A stretch of 64,000 nt of DNA from positions 62,001 to 126,000 of the forward strand of contig NZ_KE384211.1 in assembly GCF_000424585.1 (NCBI RefSeq). The letters are read 5' to 3'. A model generated the notes under the pieces. That model was not told where the DNA came from and did not search any database. It was given only the letters and a program-made list of their open reading frames with translations. A program made the translations under genes and the position numbers. Below are positions 2,061 to 61,866 of this stretch, piece by piece; the first letter of the stretch is position 1, and each line of letters opens with the position of its first letter. The DNA comes from Butyrivibrio sp. MC2013 (GTDB lineage: Bacteria > Bacillota > Clostridia > Lachnospirales > Lachnospiraceae).

Positions 2061-2321
2061 ATGGCTAATATCAAATCTGCCAAGAAGAGGATCCTGACAA
2101 GTGCAAAGCGCGCAGAGCGTAACACAGCTATCAAGTCTGCTGTAAAGACTGAGATCAAGAAGGTTAGAGCTGCTATCGAGTCCGGCAACAAGGACGAGGC
2201 TGCTAAGGCTCTTATCAATGCTACATCAGCTATCGACAAGGCTGAGAGCAAGGGCATCTTCAAGAAGAACACAGCTTCTCGTAAGGTTTCCCGTCTGGCT
2301 CAGGCTGTAGCTAAGATGTAA
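2061..2321 (+). CDS. rpsT: 30S ribosomal protein S20
   Basis: S20 binds 16S rRNA early in 30S assembly. The 86-residue product is lysine/alanine-rich and nearly all helical, beginning MANIKSAKKRI and ending KVSRLAQAVAKM, which is the standard S20 form and length. The start is preceded by CGGAGG with seven bases of spacing. It is monocistronic here, with a good promoter about 90 bases upstream and a terminator about 70 bases downstream. The conserved TASRKVSRL segment near the C-terminus is intact. It stands immediately before the large structured intergenic region. Confidence 0.97.
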   Translation: MANIKSAKKRILTSAKRAERNTAIKSAVKTEIKKVRAAIESGNKDEAAKALINATSAIDKAESKGIFKKNTASRKVSRLAQAVAKM

Positions 2322-2391
2322 TCAGATTTTTGATTTATATTGCTGTATACTTCTGTTCCCTCTGACAGGGGCATATAGATGAGATTATAAT

Positions 2392-2420
2392 CGTCGGATC
2401 CATATCCGGCGATTTTTCTT
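2392..2420 (+). terminator. Rho-independent terminator of rpsT
   Basis: CGTCGGAT pairs with ATCCGGCG (8 bp, one G-U) around a four-base loop and is followed by ATTTTTCTT. It ends two bases before the 145-bp repeat, so what lies beyond is probably transcribed separately, if at all. Confidence 0.8.
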
Positions 2421-2421
2421 A

Positions 2422-2566
2422 TATATAAAATAATCAAGATAACCCACCACCTTTAGGTGGTGGGAATATCTTGATTACGGGTGCGGGGTTATAAGCCCCG
2501 TACCCGTAGAACTGCGTCAGCAGTGATTTTATATCGAGCAAAAAGCGAAGCGTTTGCGAGTTTAAC
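2422..2566 (+). repeat. 145-bp structured repeat, copy A
   Basis: This stretch is identical at 144 of 145 positions to the reverse complement of 7538-7682. The single mismatch is T here (TTATATCGAG) against A (TTATAACGAG) in the other copy, at about 2533. It carries three stem-loops in series. The first, 2431-2477, pairs TAATCAAGATA with TATCTTGATTA and, inside it, CCCACCACC with GGTGGTGGG around TTTA. The second, 2478-2506, pairs CGGGTGCGGGG with CCCCGTACCCG. The third, 2511-2524, pairs ACTGC with GCAGT. A GCAAA/TTTGC pairing follows at 2538-2557. No open reading frame is present. It could be a palindromic mobile element lacking its own transposase, or a structured RNA. Confidence 0.9.
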
Positions 2567-2596
2567 GGCTATACACACGACATAGAAATGATTCCT

Positions 2597-2849
2597 CGCT
2601 GCTGCAGAAGTTTTTTCTTTGTTCGCGGCACTCCAAATGGTGTTTTACTATATTCTTCCACAGCCTTCTATTTATACGCCACACTCGAAAGAAACTCGCA
2701 TGGCTTCGCCTGCTCAAACATCTTTCTCGTGGGCGTTTAGAAGGCTGCGTATGAAGAATAAGTAAAACAGCTATTCTTGGATAAAGACTCCAAGAATAGA
2801 TACCATTTGAAGTGAATGCTCACTACAGAAAAAAACTTCTGCAGCAGCG
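2597..2849 (+). repeat. 253-nt imperfect long palindrome with a side hairpin
   Basis: The ends CGCTGCTGCAGAAG and CTTCTGCAGCAGCG are perfect inverted repeats extended by T6/A7 runs (2597-2618 with 2827-2849). Further in, CAAATGGT, GTTTTACT, ATTCTTC and GCCTTCT of the left arm (2633-2669) all recur as reverse complements in the right arm (2738-2810). The right arm also holds an extra perfect 11-bp hairpin (2771-2799, CTATTCTTGGA with TCCAAGAATAG). The terminal loop (about 2680-2732) again contains GAAAGA/TCTTTC and a GGC-TTC-GCC hairpin. No open frame of note crosses it. A MITE-like element or a long structured RNA are the two readings. Confidence 0.8.
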
Positions 2850-2904
2850 CTGATATTATTCTATATCGAGTGTATATATGTATATGTTATTAGACGTACC
2901 TTCA

Positions 2905-3026
2905 GAAACACGCATTTACTGCGTGTTTCGTGAGAACATGAATCTGGCAAATAGGCCCAGCGGCCCTAGCCGCTCTCAAATGGCCTATTTGCATACATTC
3001 TTGGATTATTTATCCAAGAATGTATG
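2905..3026 (+). repeat. Three consecutive strong hairpins before lepA
   Basis: Hairpin one, 2905-2929, pairs GAAACACGCA with TGCGTGTTTC. Hairpin two, 2947-2992, pairs GCAAATAGGCC with GGCCTATTTGC and nests AGCGGC/GCCGCT inside. Hairpin three, 2992-3026, pairs CATACATTCTTGGAT with ATCCAAGAATGTATG. All outer stems are perfect. None is followed by a T tract, so they are not ordinary terminators. Hairpin three shares the core ATTCTTGGA/TCCAAGAAT with the side hairpin inside the long palindrome. About 100 bases of AT-rich sequence then lead to the lepA ribosome binding site. Confidence 0.8.
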
Positions 3027-3126
3027 TTGTTATACATACATGTATTCGTGGAAATAAGGTTATGTTCATGTTATTATATGACATAAAGGTCAAAATTCAT
3101 TAATAATAATTTACAGGTAGGTAATA

Positions 3127-4944
3127 ATGTCTTTTACAGATCAGAGCAAAATCAGAAATTTTTGTATTGTAGCCCATATAGACCATGGTAAGTCTACTCT
3201 GGCAGACAGGCTTATAGAGAAGACCGGTGTCTTGACCAGCAGGGAGATGAGTGCTCAGGTGCTCGATAATATGGATATCGAGCGTGAGAGGGGCATCACC
3301 ATCAAGAGCCAGGCTGTACGTATGGTTTATAAGGCCCAAGACGGAGAAGAATATATCCTTAATATGATAGATACGCCCGGCCACGTTGACTTTGGATATG
3401 AAGTCTCAAGGAGCCTGGCAGCCTGCGACGGAGCAGTGCTTGTAGTAGATGCCACACAGGGAGTAGAGGCCCAGACACTGGCCAATGTATATATGGCTTT
3501 GGATCATGATCTTGACGTTTTCCCGGTTATCAATAAGATCGATCTTCCCAGTGCCCAGCCTCAGGAAGTCAAGGATGAGATAGAGGATATCATAGGTATC
3601 GAAGCTCAGGATGCACCTCTTATATCTGCCAAGAGCGGCATAGGTATTGAGGAAGTCTTGGAGAATGTTGTCCGCAGGATTCCCGCACCTGACGGAGATG
3701 CAAATGCTCCTCTTAAATCCCTTATATTTGATTCTATATATGATCCTTACAGAGGCGTAATAGTATTTGTCAGAATCAGGGACGGCGTACTCAAAAAGGG
3801 CATGAAGGTACGCTTTATGCAGACCGGAGCAGAAGAGGAAGTTGTAGAAGTTGGCTATTTTGGCCCCGGACAGTTTATTCCCTGTGATGAGCTTTCTGCC
3901 GGAATGGTAGGCTATTTTACCGCTTCTATCAAGAATATCCAGGACAGCCGTGTGGGTGATACCGTAACAGCTGTTGAGAATCCTTGCGAGGAAGCACTTC
4001 CCGGATATAAGAAGGTCATGCCCATGGTATATTGCGGCATATACCCTGCTGATTCAGCCAGATATCCCGATCTTCGTGATGCGCTGGAAAAACTCCAGCT
4101 CAATGATGCATCGCTTTTCTATGAGCCGGAGACCTCTCAGGCTCTTGGCTTTGGCTTTAGATGCGGATTCCTGGGACTCCTTCATCTGGAAGTAGTACAG
4201 GAGAGACTAGAGAGAGAATACGATCTGGACCTGGTAACCACAGCCCCCAGCGTTGTATACAAGGTCTACAAGACAGACGGCAGTGTGATAGAATTGACCA
4301 ATCCCTCTAATCTGCCGGATCCTTCCGAGATTGAATATATGGAAGAACCCATAGTCAGCGGCGAGATCATGGTGACTACGGATTATATTGGTTCTATTAT
4401 GCAGCTATGTCAGGAGAGAAGGGGCAAATATCTGTCTACTGACTATGTGGAGCAGACCAGGGCTATACTCAAATACGATCTGCCCCTTAATGAGATCATA
4501 TATGATTTCTTTGATGCACTTAAATCCAGATCCAGAGGCTATGCTTCCTTTGATTATGAGATCAAGGGCTATGAGAGATCAGATCTGGTTAAGCTGGACA
4601 TCCTGATCAACAGGGAGAACGTAGATGCTCTTAGCTTTATAGTGCATAAGGATGGCGCTTATGAAAGAGGTCGTAAGATGTGTGAGAAGCTCAAGGATGA
4701 GATCCCGAGGCATCTTTTTGAGATCCCTATCCAGGCGGCAGTGGGCGGCAAGGTAATAGCCAGAGAAACAGTCAAGGCTATGCGCAAAGACGTGCTTGCC
4801 AAGTGCTATGGCGGTGATATCAGCCGTAAGAGAAAGCTCCTTGAGAAACAGAAGGAAGGTAAGAAGAAGATGAGGCAGATCGGAAGTGTTGAGATACCTC
4901 AGAAGGCCTTCCTTAGCGTACTGAAGTTGGATGAAGGCAAATAA
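3127..4944 (+). CDS. lepA: Elongation factor 4 (back-translocase LepA)
   Basis: LepA is a ribosome-bound translational GTPase involved in ribosome function and 30S biogenesis. The 605 residues match the usual length. G1 is AHIDHGKST at residues 16-24, G3 is DTPGH at 82-86 and G4 is NKID at 136-139. The EF-G-like domains and the LepA-specific C-terminus ([20 protein letters not shown]) follow. The start has only a moderate AGGTAGG upstream. It is the first gene after the structured interval and is followed by hemW 14 bases downstream, a common Firmicutes pair. Nothing in the protein looks altered. Confidence 0.97.
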
Positions 4945-61641: not shown

Positions 61642-61866
61642 AGGTGTCAAAAGTTCCTTTTGACACCTTATGACTAACGGATTGTTCCGTTTCTTCGAAA
61701 CTCTCACAATCCTAAAACATTCGCAAATCCGCACTACGTGCTACTTTGCTCATGTTTTGCGGGTCATAAATTCATATTCGATTTCGAGCAAGCTCGAATC
61801 GAAATGACTTTTGACCCTTACGTCATATTATAAATCAAATATACAGGTACTCGTAAGTACCTGTAT
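61642..61866. repeat. Array of five stem-loops between the MFS and EAL genes
   Basis: The 303-base gap between the MFS start and the EAL stop has no gene. It holds AGGTGTCAAAAG/CTTTTGACACCT (61642-61668), GGATTGT/ACAATCC with inner TTTC/GAAA (61679-61712), AACAT/ATGTT with inner GCAAA/TTTGC and GCAC/GTGC (61716-61756), GGGTCA/TGACCC with inner TTCGAGC/GCTCGAA (61761-61817), and ATACAGGTACT/AGTACCTGTAT (61841-61866). CTTTTGACACCTTATGAC at 61657 and CTTTTGACCCTTACGTCA at 61808 are near direct repeats that flank the three inner hairpins. Confidence 0.8.

Follow-up and report, generated by a model that had tools for sequence, protein, structure and literature searches.

A hairpin-rich interval between rpsT and lepA in Butyrivibrio sp. 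MC2013 is a pile-up of three dispersed non-coding repeats, one of them probably a transposase-free IS200/IS605-type element

In excerpts of the published accounts, transposons of the IS200/IS605 family insert 3' of a short target that is retained in the left flank, do not duplicate it, and carry hairpins near both ends (PMC5934647; PMC7290912). For IS608, the excerpted text describes target choice as set by the element's own DNA (PMC5934647). The PATEs of Haloquadratum walsbyi, as presented in part of their original report, are short and transposase-less, with near-terminal palindromes, no terminal inverted repeats and no target duplication (PMC3119063). Their 5' end bears a targeting sequence of 4-5 nt, and their ends are related to those of IS605 (PMC3119063; PMC7290912). 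According to the same excerpts, PATEs termed 'homogeneous' are more than 90% alike (PMC3119063), and a PATE-like sequence is known in Halanaerobium (PMC7290912).

Here we describe a hairpin-rich interval within a window of 64,000 nucleotides of Butyrivibrio sp. MC2013 (contig NZ_KE384211.1, positions 62,001 to 126,000 of the forward strand), to which all window coordinates refer. The features of the interval and its flanks are the following.

2061 to 2321, plus strand: rpsT (ribosomal protein S20), flanking gene (Pfam S20)
2391 to 2420, plus strand: terminator-like hairpin and T tract behind rpsT, with element A immediately after (from the sequence, by eye)
2422 to 2426, plus strand: TATAT, the pre-existing target pentanucleotide kept at the left border of A (empty sites, copy alignment)
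2427 to 2566, plus strand: element A, 140 nt, probable transposase-free element of the IS200/IS605 type (PATE) (copies, empty sites, fold)
Hairpins of element A: left, 2433-2475; second, 2476-2508; third, 2511-2524; right-end, 2538-2557; right tip, GAGTTTAAC
2598 to 2849, plus strand: element B, about 252 nt, a single long imperfect palindrome (own-genome search, copy alignment)
2880 to 2883, plus strand: GTAT, left border of element C (copy alignment)
2884 to 3025, plus strand: element C, 142 nt, three hairpin arms (four covarying helices), ending in GTAT (own-genome search, covariation)
3127 to 4944, plus strand: lepA, flanking gene (Pfam LepA_C)

The original prediction, made from the letters of the sequence, was that positions 2422-3026 hold no gene and a series of at least seven strong stem-loops. 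Both points stand: all ORFs between rpsT and lepA are short (at most 59 aa), the seven listed hairpins are all present, and the folding is far beyond chance, with an energy of -166 kcal/mol for a 619-nt stretch against -65 +/- 4 for shuffled sequence (z = -23.7; DNA parameters, 20 dinucleotide shuffles). The list did, however, miss the right-end hairpin of element A at 2538-2557. From the series, the prediction had proposed either a new large ornate RNA in the size range of ROOL and GOLLD, or a nested set of palindromic elements at an insertion hot spot. ROOL and GOLLD are of comparable size range and have many hairpins, and we take it that Rfam includes both families.

Searching the genome itself (G000; 3.81 Mb, 48 contigs) with positions 2380-3080 returned three query blocks, 42-187, 219-471 and 499-655, which hit different sets of places in the genome. 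These blocks are elements A, B and C: hairpins 2431-2477, 2478-2506 and 2511-2524 belong to A, 2597-2849 is B, and 2905-2929, 2947-2992 and 2992-3026 belong to C. What lies between rpsT and lepA is three different repeats without coding function piled up next to each other, not one RNA. Each sub-block has a dispersed repeat family of its own, which agrees with the nested elements or hot spot of the original prediction; separate IS/MITE families for all sub-blocks was also the outcome it had named as speaking against a large RNA.

A single structured RNA of about 600 nt, ROOL/GOLLD-like and transcribed from the rpsT-lepA gap, would agree with the very strong folding (z -23.7), with the size, which is in the right range, and with the true covariation in C. 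Yet it is unsupported, because the blocks are found apart from one another elsewhere in the genome. The Rfam search gave no match in the interval at gathering thresholds and none near threshold at permissive ones, where the best was psRNA14 at 30 bits against a cut-off of 60; the predicted lack of a match to any consensus was accordingly borne out. Comparison with congeners also speaks against a single unit. The two genes are frequently adjacent there, mostly in opposite orientation, and are co-oriented on a single contig in four of 40 congeners; in these four, the gap between the matched segments is 114 nt (G023), 232 nt (G030), 360 nt (G012) and 2010 nt (G069), as against 830 nt in the window, most of which is made up of A, B and C. 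Covariation, which had been put forward as the check on the RNA, is indeed present block by block and strongest in C, but as a property of the repeats rather than of a single-locus RNA. With independent dispersal and with copy number, divergence and host range differing from block to block, we regard the single-unit RNA of about 600 nt as refuted and give it practically no credence. A false 'large RNA' candidate is thereby removed, and well-bordered repeat families stand in its place. Phage records contained no match for the interval, and in the titles and abstract starts of the open-access literature we found no description of repeats A, B or C. Elsewhere in the window, at 61671-61825 on the minus strand, Clostridiales-1 RNA (RF01699) scored 110.6 bits against a gathering score of 48.

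At 140 nt, element A is too short for a transposase, and no gene lies inside it. Terminal inverted repeats are absent; near-terminal palindromes lie at both ends, and the two end hairpins are unlike each other in sequence. In the predicted fold, the left, second and third hairpins are enclosed by a stem that includes the last target bases, and the right-end hairpin follows. Variants of A carry paired changes, read by eye: ACTGC/GCAGT becomes GCTGC/GCAGC, and one copy (L123) has AGAAT/ATTCT for AAAAT/ATTTT.

A pattern search allowing at most three mismatches located the right end of A at 54 places in the genome and the left end at 47, with none for the reversed-pattern controls. These comprise about 44 full copies, one of them split by an assembly gap, and 14 partial copies, of which nine are without the 5' part, four are without the 3' part and one has an internal deletion. 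Among the first 37 full copies, 22 match the consensus at all 146 positions, and the window's copy is one position off it. All 37 are intergenic by a crude ORF call (at least 70 aa); two copies run over the 3' end of a gene, by 7 and 12 nt, and antisense ORFs of doubtful status (74 and 96 aa) touch two copies. Several truncated copies have, by eye, a breakpoint at or near the stop codon of the neighbouring gene (5' truncations L200, L201, L203, L205 and L211; 3' truncations L215-L217), and the stop codon of the neighbour is sometimes provided by the truncated A.

The mode of insertion is visible in empty sites. The joined flanks of 12 of the 33 full insertions in AD3010, RGIG3735 and bin.19 were searched against six A-carrying genomes, and five matched. 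Two of the 13 resulting alignments were excluded, their subject being the filled site itself (the insertion of L135). Nine empty sites for six distinct insertions were obtained, one of which is a similar stretch within the same genome as the insertion. The empty sites already carry TATAT (seven of nine) or TTTAT (two of nine), without the following 140 nt, and the TATAT that precedes AAAATAATC in filled sites occupies the exact place of this pentamer. Because the empty sites already have the pentamer, insertion neither duplicates nor removes any base; the target is kept on the left side, and A itself spans 2427-2566. In the genome under study, the left pentamer of all 37 copies reads T, A or G (35 and 2 copies, respectively), T, A, T; one of six further full copies (L207) has TAAAT. 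At the right border, no motif is found across the 37 copies, and TATAT is not repeated there. These data show that A inserts directly 3' of a pre-existing TATAT or TTTAT without duplication, which is the footprint of IS200/IS605 (single-strand, Y1 HUH) insertion. A second search for empty sites took the joined flanks of ten of the 37 copies to 79 genomes of the genus, the own genome among them, with three candidates scored in each. The matches listed lay on one side of the junctions; a single match crossing a junction (71%) was left out of the empty-site evidence.

This footprint bears on two other ways in which A could have spread. Being short, nearly identical, dispersed and non-coding, A could be taken for a classical MITE of a DDE transposase or the substrate of a site-specific recombinase; with neither terminal inverted repeats nor a target duplication, and with the left TATAT unrepeated at the right border, such an origin is very improbable. 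Somewhat less improbable, but still quite unlikely, is spread through RNA by reverse transcription, in the manner of group II introns. Such a route could likewise leave an insertion 3' of a 5-nt motif with no duplication, the motif lies immediately 5' of the insertion and resembles an intron-binding site, and the compact fold of A has paired changes. Group II introns are recognized by a GUGYG start and a domain V, neither of which is seen in A by eye, and the left end of A resembles an IS605 end instead. The excess of 5'-truncated over 3'-truncated copies (nine to four) could also be read in favour of an RNA route. We dropped it as a sign of reverse transcription, since 3'-truncated copies with gene-adjacent breakpoints exist as well; several breakpoints of both kinds are at or near stop codons and therefore fit later deletions.

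For a transposase that could move A as IS200/IS605-type DNA, we turned to the four Y1_Tnp (PF01797) matches in the genome. Two lie at contig ends and represent one IS family with the left-border motif TTTAG, as judged from two copies; another is an IS200-like copy. The fourth belongs to an IS605 with TnpA and TnpB (Pfam OrfB_IS605, TNB domain) on contig C19 at about 40204 (L009), which shares 82% DNA identity with an element of AD3010 and has the left-border motif TTTAA(C), again judged from two copies. Y1 matches also occur in four of the six other A-carrying genomes, with none in the remaining two, both MAGs. Short BLAST of the Y1 loci for the ends of A gave chance-length matches only, and none of the loci examined contained an autonomous element bearing the ends of A. 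Because the left-border motifs determined for Y1 elements here are TTTAG and TTTAA(C) rather than TATAT, the cognate enzyme of A is a candidate that we infer.

The left ends provide the lead to this candidate. The left 50 nt of A scored 27 against the left end of the IS605 and 30 against its AD3010 homologue, each reached by none of 1000 shuffles. Against the two other Y1 elements the score was 12 each (p 0.55); as shuffling destroys the palindrome, these two are the better control. We made the comparison post hoc, with hand-cut ends, after the likeness had been spotted by eye once the IS borders were known. At the right end, similarity to IS605 gave p 0.002 in one homologue and 0.85 in the other, and p 0.05-0.06 for the last 9 nt. 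On account of the left-end likeness, we propose that A may be moved in trans by the TnpA of this IS605 or by one closely related to it. Because A and the IS605 carry different left motifs, it would have to be A's own DNA that sets the target.

We consider it very likely that the interval is best explained as a three-repeat pile-up in which A is an IS200/IS605-type PATE mobilised in trans, C is probably similar and B is older. Under the mechanism envisaged for A, a Y1 HUH transposase acting in trans, most likely the IS605 TnpA of the same genome or a close relative, would recognise the subterminal hairpins on one strand. The element would be excised as single-stranded DNA and inserted 3' of a TATAT-like pentamer, which would remain in the left flank, the target presumably being chosen by a guide sequence.

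Strand data are available for 57 sites. Local GC skew, taken over at most 1.7 kb on each side with the element masked, is positive in A's orientation at 44 of them (p 4.7e-5). The strands of A also cluster by contig: 48 of 57 copies are in the majority orientation of their contig, compared with a random mean of 42.3 (p 0.01). This bias fits insertion into the lagging-strand template and is confounded with gene direction.

Beyond this genome, a search of 60 relatives (36 of the same genus) found A in none, with one 27-nt match to its 3' part. When 84,980 species genomes were scanned for exact matches to the left-hairpin pattern, 51 stretches from ten genomes were recovered, all titled Lachnospiraceae, with rumen or reticulum named in four of the ten titles. 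The copies in these ten genomes are near-identical, with the same borders or running into a contig end, and a few are truncated. One insertion is common to RGIG3735 (L126) and AD3010 (L131), where the flanks have diverged (right flank 88% identical, left 72%); another is common to L147 and L149, whose flanks are 100% identical and which possibly represent one piece of DNA binned twice. In the MAG RGIG3735 (JAFTEC), many contigs start or stop inside A (for example L116, L138, L145 and L152), and A therefore probably breaks this assembly. Two viral contigs carry the bare CCCACCACCT..AGGTGGTGGG palindrome, with the remainder of A absent by eye; the right-end pattern was found in no viral contig, and plasmid records gave no match for A. 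Element A represents a recent burst, probably of a single-strand transposon, of about 44 full copies, common to several Lachnospiraceae genomes and with empty sites in hand.

Element C has a different distribution. A DNA search matched it in 19 of 61 genomes, and a covariance model built from 14 copies (E <= 0.001) in 29 of 61, some of them weakly. All 29 are among the 37 genomes of the genus, eight of which are without C, and none is among the 24 outside it. At least 50 matches each occur in G000, G007, G012 and G025, and from 1 to 40 in the other matching genomes. Distant relatives of C lie at five places on the Butyrivibrio fibrisolvens plasmid NZ_CP146964.1, the best of them at 127477-127600, with no annotated feature beneath.

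The structure of C is supported by covariation in 15 copies from 12 genomes. There, 96.1% of cells are paired, against 31-38% when the structure is slid, a control that favours the structure to some degree because the copies are related and the structure was derived from the same sequences. Two-sided changes occur in 19 of 40 pairs, where the shuffle mean is 9.3 and none of 500 shuffles reaches this number. Borders and identity were examined in 48 full copies picked from the best-scoring (28 from G000, 12 from G012 and 8 from G007). The 4-mer at the left is GTAT in 30, GCAT in 9 and another sequence in 9; at the right end it is GTAT in 33, GCAT in 14 and TCAT in one, and the two ends are not matched copy by copy. 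Copies are 87-91% alike within a genome and 70-77% between the three genomes. In G000, tandem pairs of C follow a step of 142 nt, the next copy beginning after the GTAT that ends the previous one. We also considered a small protein as the product of C and rejected it, as loop lengths differ by one base between copies.

The border of C resembles that of A in outline, with GYAT on the left of 39 of 48 copies, no matched right repeat (although 47 of 48 right ends are GYAT) and a right end at the foot of a hairpin; by this analogy, C probably spreads in a similar way. A functional RNA element, acting in regulation, processing or termination and selected at the transcript level, would instead explain the strong covariation, the linkers conserved in the 15 copies and the position between genes here. 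It sits poorly with the 50 or more matches in some genomes, with tandem copies at 142 nt joined through GTAT, and with a likeness of 87-91% within genomes against 70-77% between them, that is, amplification within lineages; we judge it unlikely. Whatever its kind, C is a repeat family with no Rfam match and with species-specific sub-families. Anyone who annotates this genus will come across it, dozens of times in the genomes of some species, and it is the part most worth follow-up.

Element B occurs at at least 12 places in the genome, including the window (12 of 92 candidates scored), the others being 75-85% identical and some in pieces. Among the 60 relatives, only one (G002) matched, through a short hairpin. 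In the copies aligned (seven, then six), B is about 250 nt long, both ends lie at the foot of the terminal stem, and hairpins show paired changes; no target duplication is visible by eye around them. B is an older palindromic repeat. A lone B-like terminal stem lies beside an IS200-like element (L051 at about 1800-1855; contig C5 at about 102000) and is perhaps a core-deleted B. B and C have a common hairpin, ATTCTTGGAT..TCCAAGAAT, at window positions 2773-2797 in B and 2997-3021 in C (80% over 25 nt), possibly a common module of the two.

A more far-reaching reading, which we put forward tentatively and hold to be less probable than not, combines two parts: C would be a new structured repeat family, either an RNA element or a GYAT-aimed hairpin transposon that builds its own tandem arrays, and A would retarget a borrowed TnpA by its own guide DNA. 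If true, A would show in nature how a short element can retarget TnpA, given that its target motif is unlike that of the presumed helper IS605. Self-targeting by guide DNA with a borrowed TnpA is made directly testable by A.

How do these elements compare with known systems? The interval differs from ROOL and GOLLD in consisting of three separate repeats and in having no Rfam match. REP/BIME repeats, which go with RAYT transposases, are high-copy intergenic palindromic repeats shorter than A and C. None of the four Y1 matches in the genome is RAYT-like by eye, and three other A-carrying genomes have proteins that we take to be RAYT-looking. Compared with the IS605 of its own genome, A has a similar left-end hairpin and a CAAGA-AA block similarly spaced from the border, but its border motif is TATAT rather than TTTAA(C), and the right-end similarity is weak. 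Like IS608 and other IS200/IS605 elements, as described in the excerpts cited, A inserts 3' of a short target in the left flank, without duplication, and has subterminal hairpins (PMC5934647; PMC7290912); unlike them, it carries no tnpA or tnpB, and unlike IS608, its end hairpins differ from each other. The closest likeness is to PATEs, whose sequence features, so far as the excerpts give them, are matched in A apart from the kinship of both ends with IS605, for which the left end shows a likeness and the right end a weak one. A departs from them in sequence and hosts, in having two further hairpins in one junction, in its presence in several genomes and in its mutually different end hairpins. 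On these sequence features, we file A as a putative transposase-free PATE that would be mobilised in trans.
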